64,000 nucleotides of DNA from NCBI RefSeq assembly GCF_900141815.1, contig NZ_FQYR01000003.1, forward strand, positions 124,001 through 188,000. The letters are read 5' to 3'. The stretch is from Rubritalea squalenifaciens DSM 18772. Lineage in GTDB: Bacteria > Verrucomicrobiota > Verrucomicrobiia > Verrucomicrobiales > Akkermansiaceae. A program made the position numbers and the translations under genes. Positions 18,770 to 56,755 of the stretch are shown here, one piece after another (position 1 is the first letter of the stretch; every line of letters starts with the position of its first letter). The notes under the pieces were generated by a model, which saw nothing but the letters and a program-made list of their open reading frames with translations, was not told the origin of the DNA and did not search any database.

Positions 18770-21640
18770 ATGGGCTTTGTGAAGATGGATATTGAGTGGA
18801 CGAAGCTAATTCCGAACGGTGGACGTGTCTTTATTGGTGGGGGAGCCAGTGTTCCCTTGAAGTTGGTGGAGGATTTGCTGGCTCAGCATGAGAGTTTTCA
18901 GGATGTGGAGCTCATCCATATTCATACTCTGGGGGAGATGCCATGGGTGGATGAAAAGTATGAGGGCAGTTTCCGGCCTAATAGTTTCTTTCTTTCCCGG
19001 AAGATGTTTGATGCTGTGGACCAAGGCAGGGCGGATTATACCCCTTGCCCGATGTCTGAGATTCCCCGCTTGTTCAGTACTGGCGTGCTGCCTCTGGACG
19101 TAGTCTTGGTGCAGGTGAGTCCTCCGGACGAGGAGGGGATGGTTTCACTGGGGGTCAGTGCCGATGTGGTCTGTGCTGCGGTGAAAGGAGCCAAAAAAGT
19201 GGTGGCTCAGGTAAACAAGCATGTGCCGCGCACCTTCGGGGATACTCGTATTCCACTGAAGAAGCTTCACAAGATGATCGAGCATGACGCCCCGTTACCA
19301 GAGATTGAGCAATGGGAGTATAAAGAGCATCACCGCAAGATCGGGGAGTATGCTGCCCAACTCATCGATGACGGTTCCATTATTCAGGCGAGTATGGGAA
19401 ATAGCCCTCAGGCGGTGTTGCATTCGCTCAAGAATCATCGGAATCTGGGTATTCACACAGGTTGCTTCACAGATGCGATGATGGAGCTGACCAAGTCTGG
19501 TGCCGTAGATAATAGTCTGAAACTGGCACAGAAGGGGCTCAGTGTGGCGTCTCATTGCCTGGGATCCCAGGCTCTTTATGATTTTGTCAGGGATAATAAG
19601 GAACTGGCGCTCTATCGCAGTGATTGGGTGAATAATCCTCATCGTATCGGGAAGCTTAAAGGGATGGTAGCCATCAACGGTGCGCGAGAGATCGACCTTA
19701 CCGGGCAGGTGGTTCGTGATTCCAGAGGGCATCGCTTCTATGGGGGGATCGGAGCTACTCAGGACTTTATTCGTGGGGCGGGTATGAGTAAGGGCGGCTG
19801 CCCGATTATTGCACTAGCTTCTACAGATGATGATGGTGCCTCTCGCATCGTGACCGGTCTGACATCTGGTAGTGGGGTCTGCAGCTCCCGGGGGGACGTG
19901 CATTATGTTGTCACCGAGTACGGGGTGGCTAACCTAGTAGGGCAGACGATTCGTCAACGGGTGCTGCGCCTGGTGGAGATTGCTCATCCCAGTGCTCGCG
20001 AAGGGCTCTTGGAAGGGGCCAGGATGCAGGGCTGGATTCCCAAGATCTATGGATTTAATCCGAAGGGAATCAATGATGCTACCCAGGAGATCGATAGTAA
20101 GAGGATCACCTTTGATAATCTGACTTATATTCTGAGGCCTCTTCACCCGAGTGATGTGCGTTCGCTGCAGATGTTCCTGTTTGCTCAGGACGAAGAAACG
20201 ATCCGCCTTCGCTACGGCTATGCAGCTCCTGCGCTTGATGAGCGTTCCGCCTACCGAATGGCGTCAGTGGATCAATCTAGGGATCTGGCTCTGGGGATTT
20301 TTTACAAGATCGGCCACAGGGAAGAGCTTCGGGCGGTCGGACGTTTCTACTTGGATCGGGACAAGACCTCGGCTGAAGTGGCCTTTCTCGTGCACGAGAA
20401 GGCAAGGCGTAAAGGAATCGCCAACTACCTTTTGTCTGAGATGTCGGTGATCGCAAAGGCGAGGGGAGTGAAGCGTTTCTGGGCCAGTGTGCTCAGAGAA
20501 AATAAACCCATGGCTCAGTTGTTTTTCAGCCGTGGCGCGGAGAGGGAGAGGATTCCTGAGGATGACAGTGATGAGTATGTCATGAGCGTCGCTGAATTGG
20601 TGCGTCAGTATCAGAAGTGGCAGGCGAGGCAGGAGCTCAAGGGGCAGACGGTGGCGAGTATTGCCATGGAACTTCAGTCAAAGAAGAAGGCACCTGCTCG
20701 TGTCAAGGATCGTGGATTGGGGATTTATAAGTCCGAGTTTCTACTCAAGCACCAGCCTGGGCCTGAGCACCCGGAGTCTCCGGAGCGATACCAAGCCGTG
20801 CTTGAGGCAATCGGAGAGGTCGAAGGGGATGTGACTTGGATTGCTGAGCGTAAGGCGGAGGTGAAGGAGGTTCTCTTGGCGCATTCTGCCAGCTACCATG
20901 ATCTGGCGAAATACGACATCGAGCACTTTGCCGATCAATTAAGAACGGGGGATACGATGGTATGCATGGATTCTTATGATGTGGTGATGGCCGCGGTGGG
21001 TGGAGTCCTTAATGCGGTGGATGAGGTGATGGAGAACAGAGTCAGCCGTGCTTTCTGCGCTGTGAGGCCGCCCGGACATCACGCCACGGAAGACAGAGGA
21101 ATGGGGTTCTGCATCTTTAATCATGCCGCGATAGCTGCCAGGTATGCACAAAGCCGCCACGATGCGGATAGAGTGGCGATACTCGATTGGGATGTGCACC
21201 ATGGTAACGGGACCCAGGATATCTTCTATGAAGATGGGACGGTCTTCTATTTTTCAACGCATCAAGACGGAGTGTTTCCATTCAGTGGCAGCGCCAATGA
21301 GACAGGCATTGAGGATGGGGCTGGATCTAACTGGAATGTTCCCTTGCCTGCTAGCTCTGGTGATGATGCCTATGGTGAAGCTTGGGGCAAAGCTCTCGAA
21401 GCACGGCTGAAAGAGTTTGCCCCTGATTTGATTATTATTTCCGCTGGTTTTGATGCCTCCGCGTCTGACCCTTTGGCGGACATGTCTGTCACTCCCTCTG
21501 GATTTGCCAAGCTCACCAATCTGGTGAGGGGTTATGCTGACCAGTTTTGCGGAGGAAAATTGATCAGTGTGCTTGAGGGGGGGTATGACCCGAAGTCTCT
21601 GAAAGAGTGTGTCCAGCAGCATCTGGTCTCTCTGAAATGA
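18770..21640 (+). CDS. Three-domain fusion: acetyl-CoA hydrolase/transferase-like + GNAT acetyltransferase + HDAC-family deacetylase
   Basis: The single 956-codon frame joins three enzymes. Residues ~5-435 are an acetyl-CoA hydrolase/4-hydroxybutyrate CoA-transferase-type domain ([48 protein letters not shown]). Residues ~450-615 are a GNAT domain ([18 protein letters not shown], acetyl-CoA loop RRKGIA at 546-551). Residues ~645-956 are an HDAC/acetoin-utilisation/acetylpolyamine deacetylase domain with RPPGHH (H770, H771), zinc ligands D808, H810 and D895, and the catalytic tyrosine Y939 in EGGYD. No frameshift or internal start is evident at the joins. The HDAC part looks fully active. In the transferase part, the position where relatives have HTEM (catalytic Glu) reads H229-T-G231-C. 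CoA-transferase/GNAT fusions are known; the added deacetylase is the unusual part. Substrate and cellular role are unknown. Confidence 0.9.
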
Positions 21641-21648
21641 CATTAAAG

Positions 21649-21699
21649 TGAAAAAAGATTCATTTTATGCTTGTCGAATCTGAAATTTCGGGGTATTTC
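21649..21699 (+). promoter_or_regulatory. Promoter and upstream inverted repeat of array unit 1
   Basis: A 14-bp element TGAAAAAAGATTCA (21649-21662) is followed after 8 bp by TTGTCG (21671-21676), a 17-bp spacer and TATTTC (21694-21699). The same order and spacing recur in units 2-4. Confidence 0.65.
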
Positions 21700-21705
21700 A
21701 TTAAT

Positions 21706-21768
21706 CACCATTTGGGGGGTATAAGGGGCTGTAGATGATCTCGATCGTCTGCAGCCCTTTAATTTTAT
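21706..21768 (+). ncRNA. Small-RNA-like unit 1 of a four-copy tandem array
   Basis: The predicted transcript starts ~7 bases after the -10 at the box CACCATTTGGGGGGTA (21706-21721). It ends in a terminator hairpin: GGGCTGTAGA (from 21726) pairs with TCTGCAGCCC (21748-21757), followed by a T-rich tail. Predicted length is ~60 nt. No open reading frame fits. The box is identical in units 1, 3 and 4 and nearly so in unit 2, while the rest has diverged. Confidence 0.7.
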
Positions 21769-21940
21769 AGCATAGGAGTGCGTTCTCCTGATTGGGAGAG
21801 ACTGTGTGGTTAAAATTAATTCATCAAACTAGAGTGTGGAAATGTGGAGCCTCTGTCTGATACGGTTCAGAGTTTTAAGCTGTCTACGGCTGAATCTTCT
21901 GTGATTGTGAAGATGATTCTAGCTAGTGAGAGAATGTACA

Positions 21941-21990
21941 TGAAAATTATTTCATTTAATTCTTGTCATGTGCCAGGAATGCGCTATTAC
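21941..21990 (+). promoter_or_regulatory. Promoter and upstream inverted repeat of array unit 2
   Basis: TGAAAATTATTTCA (21941-21954), 8 bp, TTGTCA (21963-21968), then about 16 bp to TATTAC (21985-21990). Confidence 0.65.
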
Positions 21991-21998
21991 TTCGTTTA

Positions 21999-22057
21999 AC
22001 CATTTGGGGGGTTAACGAGCTGTAGGATGATTCATTTCACCTGCAGCTCTTTTTTTA
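21999..22057 (+). ncRNA. Small-RNA-like unit 2 of the tandem array
   Basis: The box ACCATTTGGGGGGTTA (21999-22014) is followed by a hairpin in which GAGCTGTAGG (22017-22026) pairs with CCTGCAGCTC (22040-22049), then eight Ts. Compared with unit 1, two stem positions have changed on both sides (G-C to A-T and A-T to G-C), so pairing is preserved. This is covariation between copies in the same genome. Confidence 0.7.
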
Positions 22058-22117
22058 CAGGGGAGGCACCCATACTTTTGGGGTGTTTTTGCGCTTTATC
22101 GATTAGATTTACAAAAA

Positions 22118-22168
22118 TGAAAATAAATTCATTTATTGGGTTGACGGATCGCGTTTTCTGACTACAAA
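22118..22168 (+). promoter_or_regulatory. Promoter and upstream inverted repeat of array unit 3
   Basis: TGAAAATAAATTCA (22118-22131), 9 bp, TTGACG (22141-22146), 16 bp, TACAAA (22163-22168). This is the best -35 match of the set, together with unit 4. Confidence 0.7.
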
Positions 22169-22174
22169 CAGAGT

Positions 22175-22235
22175 CACCATTTGGGGGGTATTGGGGCTGT
22201 GGATGGAATGAATCCGTCTGCAGCCCTATTTTTTT
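22175..22235 (+). ncRNA. Small-RNA-like unit 3 of the tandem array
   Basis: The box CACCATTTGGGGGGTA (22175-22190) is followed by the hairpin GGGCTGTGGA (from 22194) with TCTGCAGCCC (22217-22226; two G-U pairs) and seven Ts at 22229-22235. An inner GGAT/ATCC pairing is an alternative fold of the loop. Confidence 0.72.
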
Positions 22236-22293
22236 GGAGTTTTTTGACAGGTTGTTTGAATGAGGGTCGATGAGAAATAAAATGAGCAAATAA

Positions 22294-22343
22294 TGAAAAT
22301 AAATTCATTTAATGATTGACGAATTGCATTTTCTGAGTAAAAA
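22294..22343 (+). promoter_or_regulatory. Promoter and upstream inverted repeat of array unit 4
   Basis: TGAAAATAAATTCA (22294-22307, identical to unit 3), 8 bp, TTGACG (22316-22321), 16 bp, TAAAAA (22338-22343). Confidence 0.7.
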
Positions 22344-22349
22344 CAGAAT

Positions 22350-22413
22350 CACCATTTGGGGGGTATTTAAGGGCTGTGGACGCACAATGTGTCTGCAGCC
22401 CTTATTCTTTTTC
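22350..22413 (+). ncRNA. Small-RNA-like unit 4 of the tandem array
   Basis: The box CACCATTTGGGGGGTA (22350-22365) is followed by a hairpin of AAGGGCTGTGGAC (22369-22381) with GTCTGCAGCCCTT (22391-22403) and a T-rich tail. The unit ends 10 bases before the stop codon of the convergent exonuclease gene, so its terminator may also serve that leftward operon. Confidence 0.72.
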
Positions 22414-22422
22414 TGTATTCGT

Positions 22423-23055
22423 TCAGCGGCGTAGACGGTGCCAGGCCGATGTGTCAGGTGAGATCAAGCTGCTAAGTGGAGAATGGTGGAGCTCGAAGGT
22501 GTTGATGATGTGCTCGAGCAAGACGATAGAAGCAGCGGCGTCATAGAGGGCATCGTGCCAGGTTCTGTCTGGAACGATTTTACCCACGCTATGGTGAAGG
22601 TTGTGAGTTTGGCAAATGGCCCCCAGTGAGTGGTCGGAAATTTCGGGCCAAGCAGCACGAGAAAGTTGCAGTGTATCGATCCAGGGGCCAAACCCGTGTC
22701 CCGGGAAGGCGTTAAGAAAGCGTTTCTCGGTGCCATGCCCATGAGCGACGACTGCTCTGGAAGCCAGTCGGCGTTTCAGGTGAGGCCAGAGCAGCATGAG
22801 TTTAGGGGCATCCTTCAGATCATCCCGAGTGATGCCGTGTACCTTCTGAGCCGACCAAGTGATATCCTGATCCGTATGAATGTAGGAAGTCCAGGTGTCT
22901 GAGATTCCATCATCCAGTGACCAGGAGGTGGTGCCTACTTGCACGGGGGCGTCAGTCTTTCCGCTGGCAGTACCTGCGGATTCAAAATCAATAGCCGTGA
23001 ATATCGTCTCTCGGATCACCGTTCGAGTCATGCCTGTTGCACAGTCAGTGATCAA
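22423..23055 (-). CDS. DEDDh-type 3'-5' exonuclease (DnaQ/RNase T fold)
   Basis: The 210-residue product has the three exonuclease motifs. ExoI is FTAIDFES (D23, E25), ExoII lies around VVAHGHGTEKRFLNAF, and ExoIII is WHDALYD, matching HxAxxD. This fold removes nucleotides from the 3' end of DNA or RNA; the substrate cannot be assigned. The real start may be the ATG eight codons downstream (MTRTVIRET). It is the last of four same-strand genes with gaps of 26, 12 and 28 bp, behind the anti-sigma factor gene. Confidence 0.87.
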   Translation of the reverse strand: MITDCATGMTRTVIRETIFTAIDFESAGTASGKTDAPVQVGTTSWSLDDGISDTWTSYIHTDQDITWSAQKVHGITRDDLKDAPKLMLLWPHLKRRLASRAVVAHGHGTEKRFLNAFPGHGFGPWIDTLQLSRAAWPEISDHSLGAICQTHNLHHSVGKIVPDRTWHDALYDAAASIVLLEHIINTFELHHSPLSSLISPDTSAWHRLRR

Positions 23056-23081: not shown

Positions 23082-23729
23082 TTAAGCTCGCAGATCTAGT
23101 GGGAGATTAGAGGTCTGCTCATTGGAGTCTGCTGGGATGCGGGGAATCATCTTGCTGAGATTGGTGGAGAAATGCTCAATGCCAGATGCTAGCTTGGATA
23201 TTTGCTTGGATCGTTCGTTGATCAGCTCCGTGCCAGACTCACTAATAGTGTGAAGTGAGATGGAAATTTTCTCCTGATTGATAGGCAGGCTGTTGATAGC
23301 AAGTTTGACTTGAGAAAGGTCTTTGGGCGTAGCTTGCTGTTGATGACTAGTCTGAGTCTCTTGAGTATATGCGGTTGGAGATTGAGCGTGTGGCTGCGTT
23401 TCTGGCTGAATGGCGATGAGTAGCCCGATGCAGGCCGCGACAGCGAGTGGTATCCAGATTTTTAGGATACTAGTCTTGTCTGATGGCTTCGGCTCAGTCT
23501 GGCGTGTGTTGATCTCAGCCATGATTGTGTCTGCCAAGTCTGCAGGCGTTTCCGCAAATTGCGTGATGCTGGCTAGTTCGGAGAGTGAGCCAGCAGGTCC
23601 CCACTGTTGATGGAACTCGGCACATTCCGGGCAGGCGGAGATATGTTGCACAAGGTCACTTGTCAGCGTATTCCCTTCATCGTAATGATCTGAGAGGCGC
23701 ATCATAGTTTGTTCACAGGTGTCTTTCAT
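23082..23729 (-). CDS. Membrane anti-sigma factor with zinc-finger motif
   Basis: The 215-residue protein starts with a ZAS-type anti-sigma domain carrying H29-xxx-C33-xx-C36 (HISACPEC). One membrane helix follows around residue 110 (LKIWIPLAVAACIGLLIAI), and a ~85-residue Gln/Thr-rich and helical part would lie outside the membrane. It lies 12 bp downstream of the ECF sigma factor gene, the usual partner arrangement in which the anti-sigma factor holds the sigma factor at the membrane. Confidence 0.85.
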   Translation of the reverse strand: MKDTCEQTMMRLSDHYDEGNTLTSDLVQHISACPECAEFHQQWGPAGSLSELASITQFAETPADLADTIMAEINTRQTEPKPSDKTSILKIWIPLAVAACIGLLIAIQPETQPHAQSPTAYTQETQTSHQQQATPKDLSQVKLAINSLPINQEKISISLHTISESGTELINERSKQISKLASGIEHFSTNLSKMIPRIPADSNEQTSNLPLDLRA

Positions 23730-23741
23730 GGTGGGAATAGT

Positions 23742-24377
23742 TTAGTGGTTCACAGTGGCAGCTAGCTCGTGCTGTTCAGCAAGAAGGCTGGATTGAGCGA
23801 GCGCTTTGCGGCCGCGGAATAGGTGGATTTTTACATTGGAGGGACTTTGCTTCATAGTCTCGCTGATCATTTTGACCGGCATCTCTTGCTGGTAGTGGAG
23901 CCAGAGAGCTGTGAATTGGTCGTCTGATAGGAGGCGTCTGGCTTCGTCCCAGAACACTTCTGCTTGCTCATTGGAGTCCAGATCGGTTCTAGGGGTTGTG
24001 CTAAGAATGTCTGAGGCATTGGCAGGTTCGGGGAGAGGCTTGAGCTTACGAAAATGGTCGTTGGCTTTGTTGCGGGCTATTCCGTAGATCCAGGCGCTAA
24101 AAGACTTCTCCGTGTCAAAGGACTCCAGATTGCGATAGATTGCGATGAAGGTCTCTTGGCATACGTCTTGGGCATCAGACCTCTCATTCAGGCGCTTGAG
24201 GAGGAAGGCCATGAGCTTGTTCTCATAGCGTGCAATAATGGAGCGATATGAGTTTGTGCAGCCAGCCAGAACCATGCGGACGAGTTCTTCGTCTGTGGTT
24301 TCGGTGGGGAGACTCATGTGGTGTATGTCGCTCATGGTGAGATTGTGCATGGCACTTGGCGAAGCCGGAGGTGCCAT
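23742..24377 (-). CDS. ECF-type RNA polymerase sigma factor
   Basis: The 211-residue product has region 2 (YRSIIARYENKLMAFLLKRL, then DAQDVCQETFIAIYRNLESF and SFSAWIYGIARNKANDHFRK) and region 4 (DDQFTALWLHYQQEMPVKMI followed by QSPSNVKIHLFRGRKAL). This is the standard ECF core. The first ~20 residues look non-conserved, so the true start may be at 24350, 24335 or 24317. It sits between a secreted-protein gene (28 bp upstream) and its probable anti-sigma factor (12 bp downstream). Confidence 0.92.
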   Translation of the reverse strand: MAPPASPSAMHNLTMSDIHHMSLPTETTDEELVRMVLAGCTNSYRSIIARYENKLMAFLLKRLNERSDAQDVCQETFIAIYRNLESFDTEKSFSAWIYGIARNKANDHFRKLKPLPEPANASDILSTTPRTDLDSNEQAEVFWDEARRLLSDDQFTALWLHYQQEMPVKMISETMKQSPSNVKIHLFRGRKALAQSSLLAEQHELAATVNH

Positions 24378-56668: not shown

Positions 56669-56755
56669 GGCAGAGGGGGTGGGATTCGAACCCACGAAGC
56701 CTTTCGGCTTGCCGGTTTTCAAGACCGGTGCATTCAACCGCTCTGCCACCCCTCC
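56669..56755 (-). tRNA. tRNA-Ser (anticodon UGA)
   Basis: The minus strand folds as a serine tRNA: acceptor GGAGGGG, D-arm with GCAGAGCGGTTGAATGC, anticodon loop CTTGAAA with anticodon TGA (56719-56721), a long variable arm (CAAGCCGAAAGGCTTCG), T-arm GTGGGTTCGAATCCCAC and an encoded CCA end at 56669-56671. The long variable arm and length of 87 bases are typical of tRNA-Ser. A terminator follows after 14 bases. Confidence 0.97.

Follow-up and report, generated by a model that had tools for sequence, protein, structure and literature searches.

A tandem array of four G-box units that looks like an undescribed family of multicopy small RNAs

Some bacterial small RNAs (sRNAs) come as siblings, where redundant genes encode RNAs with a shared seed. 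Qrr, PrrF, CcsR and NgncR_162/163 are examples, and most of these siblings are Hfq-dependent. Two systems are of particular interest for the locus described here. LhrC1-5 of Listeria monocytogenes are several copies of an sRNA under the control of one regulator (LisRK), with a redundant short pairing motif that is CU-rich and occurs three times per RNA; lapB is a known target, and Hfq is needed neither for stability nor for target binding (PMC4132741). The CiaR-dependent csRNAs of streptococci are encoded by two to six genes per genome, are 51-202 nt long, and are made from a common regulated promoter in an intergenic region that is followed by a terminator (PMC3091779). A third system, the sRNA RepG of Helicobacter pylori, illustrates that specificity can rest on a homopolymer, as it targets a G repeat in an mRNA (PMC8295292).

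The locus that we compare with these systems lies in a 64,000-nucleotide stretch of DNA from Rubritalea squalenifaciens (the window; all positions without a further label are positions in it). An array of four units occupies 21649-22413, inside a 782-bp gap between an ORF that ends at 21640 (+) and a convergent, exonuclease-like ORF at 22423-23055 (-). The gap, with its four units on one plan, had been proposed by an earlier sequence-only reading and is confirmed here. In every unit a TGAA-N6-TTCA dyad precedes a -35 of the type TTGWC, which a spacer of 16-17 bp separates from a weak -10; the box ACCATTTGGGGGGT, a hairpin and a T-rich tail come next. The individual features are listed below.

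21649-21662, no strand: unit 1 upstream dyad TGAAAAAAGATTCA (sequence reading; unit alignment)
21671-21699, plus: unit 1 predicted promoter, TTGTCG, 17-nt spacer, TATTTC (sequence reading; missed by consensus scan)
21706-21721, plus: unit 1 G box CACCATTTGGGGGGTA, predicted RNA 5' end (sequence reading; genome pattern search)
21722-21761, plus: unit 1 terminator hairpin, then T-rich tail (terminator scan, folding, covariation)
21941-21954, no strand: unit 2 upstream dyad TGAAAATTATTTCA (sequence reading; unit alignment)
21963-21990, plus: unit 2 predicted promoter, TTGTCA, 16-nt spacer, TATTAC (sequence reading; missed by consensus scan)
21998-22013, plus: unit 2 G box AACCATTTGGGGGGTT (sequence reading; genome pattern search)
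22017-22049, plus: unit 2 terminator hairpin, its stem changed in a compensatory way, then T run (folding, covariation; missed by terminator scan)
22118-22131, no strand: unit 3 upstream dyad TGAAAATAAATTCA (sequence reading; unit alignment)
22141-22168, plus: unit 3 predicted promoter, TTGACG, 16-nt spacer, TACAAA (sequence reading; missed by consensus scan)
22175-22190, plus: unit 3 G box CACCATTTGGGGGGTA (sequence reading; genome pattern search)
22192-22228, plus: unit 3 terminator hairpin, then T run (terminator scan, folding, covariation)
22294-22307, no strand: unit 4 upstream dyad TGAAAATAAATTCA (sequence reading; unit alignment)
22316-22343, plus: unit 4 predicted promoter, TTGACG, 16-nt spacer, TAAAAA (sequence reading; missed by consensus scan)
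22350-22365, plus: unit 4 G box CACCATTTGGGGGGTA (sequence reading; genome pattern search)
22368-22404, plus: unit 4 terminator hairpin, then T-rich tail (terminator scan, folding, covariation)

The spacing is tightly kept. The dyad is centred 15.5, 15.5, 16.5 and 15.5 bp upstream of the -35 in units 1-4, the box starts 7-8 nt past the -10, and the hairpin begins 1-5 nt beyond the last G of the box. All four units have the 14-bp upstream element, the -35, the 16-17 spacing and the box position that the earlier reading had listed, and the box is, as it had said, identical in units 1, 3 and 4 (CACCATTTGGGGGGTA), with AACCATTTGGGGGGTT in unit 2. Its further claim of exactly six Gs is true of this genome and fails elsewhere, as four of six homologous units from another genus (see below) have seven. 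Terminator-like sites at the locus number three (units 1, 3 and 4), against 0.7 +- 0.9 in shuffled sequence. A consensus promoter scan called none of the four unit promoters and one site elsewhere, against 1.9 expected; the predicted promoters thus rest on the common dyad, -35 and spacing. By eye, no reading frame is common to the units; the frame that opens at the TTG in the box ends after three codons in unit 2, and the possible frames and their lengths vary between the units.

The neighbourhood holds some further features. The upstream gene (18770-21640, +) encodes a fusion protein of 956 aa that joins acetyl-CoA hydrolase/transferase, GNAT acetyltransferase and histone-deacetylase domains. 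It has good matches, in open frames 920-960 codons long, in L019-L023, which are five further members of the genus, and a weak one in a sixth (G003). About 700 bp downstream of the array, at 23082-24377 (-), lie genes for an ECF sigma factor and an anti-sigma-like protein; the sigma factor matches a Rhodopirellula/Verrucomicrobium subfamily model at 77 bits, which is below the cut-off of 124.55, a match in keeping with membership of the Verrucomicrobiota but no proof of it.

Conservation among the four units is concentrated in a few blocks. Mean pairwise identity is 96% in the box, 88% in the dyad block (13 of 17 columns invariant) and 70% and 86% in the two stem arms, and falls to 45% in the spacer, -10 and discriminator, 40% in the loop, 39% in the tail and 33% in the DNA immediately upstream. 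Loops and promoter-hairpin stretches do differ around a nearly constant box, as first noticed by inspection. The stem alignment likewise confirms that two stem pairs of unit 2 are altered on both arms with pairing kept (GC to AU, AU to GC), and one more pair is altered on both sides in another unit, which makes three such pairs in total. Folding energies of the plus strand run from -25.8 to -30.5 kcal/mol and those of the minus strand from -17.3 to -20.6, a strand bias that is as expected for a plus-strand RNA with G.U pairs. The folding z-scores of units 1-4 are -5.67, -6.00, -4.09 and -4.92.

Within the 4.32-Mb genome the array stands alone. The pattern CCATTTGGGGGG occurs four times, always at the array and on one strand, and its reversed form not at all. 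Covariance model R1 recovers the same four units, followed at 23.7 bits by an ordinary terminator. The looser pattern TTTGGGGGG has 31 places against 4 for the reversed pattern; of 30 inspected by eye, four are the units and the other 26 are without the promoter-box-hairpin plan, 20 of them in open frames of at least 150 codons. When up to three mismatches are allowed, the 16-nt box turns up at 21 places outside the units and a control at 20. Rfam 15 at curated scores finds only a tRNA in the whole window (56671-56755), and a relaxed scan of 21600-22450 gave six matches, all far under the gathering scores. This agrees with the sequence-only reading, which had recognised no known RNA family. 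A search of an open-access library for regulatory RNAs of the phylum also brought up no sRNA family of this kind.

The dyad deserves some attention of its own. Combined with TTGNC, it occurs in this genome at the four units and also at nine sites elsewhere, of which eight are in open frames (reversed control, 0). None of 30 inspected upstream regions of tRNA genes, from 41 tRNA matches in this genome, has it, so tRNA promoters here do not, as a rule, share the dyad. In other genomes of the order there are 23 places with a dyad-like pattern. Four of the 12 inspected precede a tRNA gene, so the dyad may contribute as an UP element. These four (L236, L237, L245, L246) have TGAAAA-N4-TTCATTT and then TTG, upstream of genes for tRNA-Thr, tRNA-Val and two tRNA-Phe. 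By eye, many of the tRNA promoters of this genome (G000; L248-L277) have A-tracts directly ahead of a -35 of the TTGC type, with a discriminator rich in C; the array discriminators are A+T-rich, unlike those.

Is the box found in any other organism? Outside this genome, exact CCATTTGGGGGG has 102 places against 22 for the reversed pattern, an excess that arises mostly because 93 of the 102 are in open frames of at least 80 codons. All 102 were inspected. Four places have the box, a strong hairpin and a T-rich tail, and all four belong to another genus of the same family (g9: species G248, G359, G277 and G278). Three were among 13 places flagged by a script, and the fourth came from R1, run on 98 of the 102, plus inspection; the remaining flagged places do not repeat the unit plan. 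The four g9 places are one locus, beside a divergent lysS. In G248 and G359 a further unit stands in tandem, 227 nt upstream of the first, and has the box ATATCATTTGGGGGGAAGG, giving six homologous units in four species. Rfam finds only rRNA and tRNA at these loci.

The g9 units have folding z-scores of -3.5 to -5.1. The sequence CATTTGGGGGG, with one A two positions earlier, is identical in all ten units of both genera and makes up 12 of the 20 invariant columns in a 74-column alignment of the ten units. The hairpin sequences differ, with GGGCTG..CAGCCC in this genome and AGCAGCC..GGCTGCT or GCGGCC..GGCCGC in g9. Among the four primary g9 units there are 23 consecutive invariant columns, and in the cross-pairs G248/G278 and G359/G277 the box plus 5' stem is 96% and 89% identical in flanks that are 22-45% identical (24-33% for G248/G278). 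The box was the search key, so its identity at the four primary g9 places is partly ascertained; the single syntenic locus, the equal terminator distance and the second copy in two species are not ascertained by the search. The dyad is clear in one of the six g9 units (first copy of G359). By eye, the predicted promoter of the second unit in G248 and G359 contains an inverted repeat of the type GTGGG..CCC(C)A (L350:7060-7120 and its L351 counterpart), and no such repeat was seen at the other units. The box is thus conserved beyond the strain, in four species of a second genus, and these homologues support the core of the earlier proposal, that the units are paralogues which encode small RNAs of a so far undescribed family and come in several copies in the manner of stress sRNAs.

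Further searches added no units. A covariance search for relatives had been suggested at the outset; with strict filters, R1 found no homologue in 386 genomes of the order and missed the g9 units, which came to light through exact CCATTTGGGGGG. R1 was also run on 39 genomes (relatives plus this one). We judged its matches in G029 and G344 (terminators) and G130 (inside a coding frame) to be due to chance, as we did two matches of the box with GCTG..CAGC in public genome contigs. In viral contigs a 14-mer gave 53 matches, 16 of them with R1 at E 0.01 (best 25.1 bits), and the three that were aligned have no hairpin; the homologue-type pattern gave none in viral contigs, and phages and plasmids gave no match. 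At E 0.1, scans of 904 kb and 1.02 Mb of sequence with model R2 added no unit. Two more scans returned low-scoring matches, 49 in one (best 24.7 bits) and 36 in the other (best 24.0 bits), and almost all of these are at box-selected places. Within the genus, no unit came to light beside the fusion-gene orthologue in the five members L019-L023, where the orthologous downstream DNA inspected was about 1.5 kb each in L019 and L023 and about 185 nt, to the contig end, in L021, and where L020 and L022 had a motif scan of both strands only.

We lean towards the reading that the array is four paralogous genes for non-coding RNAs of about 60 nt, which would act in trans through a G-rich 5' seed, probably independently of Hfq. 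Together with the g9 homologues they look like an undescribed family of sibling sRNAs with a known general plan. Apart from the box, no long stretch is retained in both genera. The box lies near the predicted RNA start and before the terminator, and this layout is the plan of a minimal seed-plus-terminator sRNA. There is no recognisable Hfq in the 16 genomes searched, this one included, by a search whose control was positive in 5 of 14 well-known genomes. This result and the box-before-terminator plan lead us to favour Hfq-independent pairing with C-rich mRNA sites. In the mechanism that we propose, each unit would be transcribed from its own predicted promoter, with the RNA starting at or just before the box, and the common dyad would bind one regulator, which would switch the four units together. 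The box core CAUUUGGGGGG would be the seed, pairing in trans and without Hfq, at C-rich sites, with a single mRNA or a small number of them. The hairpin would serve both termination and stability, and copy number would set the dose. In the second genus the same RNA would be made at a different locus, next to lysS, and with a hairpin of another sequence.

The search for targets gave a more sober picture. The earlier suggestion that the G-rich end pairs with C-rich leaders is, as a broad rule, not borne out by duplex, C-tract and start-anchored tests on 599 start regions (20% of the genome, from gene calls made for this analysis). Box duplexes below -14 kcal/mol number 94 across these starts, against 75 for the reversed box and 26-102 for ten shuffles; below -17 kcal/mol the counts are 12, 13 and 5-22. 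Further inside the same genes there are 147 and 26 such duplexes, respectively. Tracts of five or more Cs are equally common at -90..-45 and -40..+5 (24/599 each). At every threshold, complementarity anchored at the start is less frequent for 516 ATG starts than for 29,468 other ATGs. The stretch -40..-1 has 15 overlapping CCCCCC positions and each upstream bin 6-8, a hint in favour that we judge untrustworthy, and only eight of the 599 genes have C6 in -45..+12. A post hoc association of C5+ leaders with exported, signal-peptide-like proteins (12/27 vs 118/572, p 0.006) failed in an independent 800 kb (5/18 vs 181/568, OR 0.82). Pairing of the core with 16S rRNA, examined in G278, was also rejected, with 123 of 200 shuffled cores equal or better.

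A narrow target set may exist. The core is 11 nt long and is the exact complement of CCCCCCAAAUG. One candidate target gene in this genome (C4:197618-198388) encodes a protein of 256 aa whose N-terminus is hydrophobic, and the gene has CCCUCCAAAUG at its start. The gene of a PEP-CTERM protein (L234:8552-9418, -; C4:448552-449418) is also a candidate; three CCCCCC tracts surround its start codon (GCCCCCCAACTAACCCCCCTAGCTATGACCCCCC) and are complementary to the box Gs.

The missing signal in the start-region tests would also suit RNAs that bind a protein, as a CsrB-like sponge or a scaffold, with the G box as the protein site and not a seed. Several identical copies with a short invariant single-stranded motif fit titration of a protein. 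However, each RNA carries one motif and not an array, and by eye the box is without the GGA-loop that is the motif of the CsrA kind. We consider this explanation unlikely.

It is also conceivable that the box works at the level of DNA, as an initially transcribed or regulator-binding element, and that the units are promoter-terminator decoys which titrate a regulator, the RNA being inert. In favour of this, the present genome conserves the dyad, the -35 and the box and keeps their spacing fixed. That said, the second genus keeps the box beside the hairpin though the upstream region has changed, and the hairpins retain pairing through sequence changes, which makes a decoy quite unlikely.

Instead of free sRNAs, the units could be parts of mRNAs from adjacent genes, as leaders, attenuators or 3' ends. 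Unit 1 starts 9 bp past the fusion gene's stop codon, and the mRNA of that gene could terminate at the unit 1 hairpin; in G248, G359 and G277 a unit lies immediately upstream of ilvA. Yet four tandem units cannot all lead or end one gene, the next gene after the array is on the opposite strand, with no plus-strand gene downstream for which the units could be leaders, and the neighbours differ between the genera. The G278 unit persists without an adjacent ilvA, so the units are not an ilvA leader. All in all, this alternative is very unlikely. A recent tandem duplication of functionless terminator-like sequence, for which the 88% identity of units 3 and 4 across 52 nt and the lack of a unit at the orthologous place in five genus members could speak, is hardly credible given identical boxes amid diverged spacers and loops, compensatory stem changes and homologues in another genus.

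To return to the sibling-sRNA reading, a conserved multicopy family in which an 11-nt core is fixed and the hairpin varies by genus offers a concrete, testable way to study Hfq-free riboregulation and to ask how a homopolymer seed achieves specificity. A bolder version appears doubtful at present: G-box RNAs would found an Hfq-independent class, whose core CAUUUGGGGGG clamps a C tract plus the start codon of a few mRNAs, whose dose is set by tandem copies, and which has moved between loci within the family with its core kept.

How does the array compare with the known systems? With LhrC1-5 the likeness is in the multicopy sRNA, the short redundant motif and, here as proposals, control by one regulator and independence of Hfq; the difference is that each unit has one G-rich box and not three CU-rich sites. 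LhrC1-5 is a separate sequence family, as the array has no Rfam match. The csRNAs share the gene plan of the array units. They have a direct-repeat CiaR site and an anti-SD/anti-AUG seed, and belong to other organisms and another regulator, whereas the array has an inverted repeat as its dyad and a G-rich proposed seed. RepG, from a host that lacks Hfq, is a partial mirror image, with the G repeat in the mRNA there and the G tract in the sRNA here. Qrr, PrrF, CcsR and the NgncR_162/163 pair resemble the array in having redundant genes with a common seed; their seeds and regulators are others. The lack of an Rfam match and the different seed place the array in neither the LhrC nor the csRNA family. 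Judged from its sequence, the array would work by a plan like that of LhrC1-5 or the csRNAs and, as far as tested, belongs to neither.
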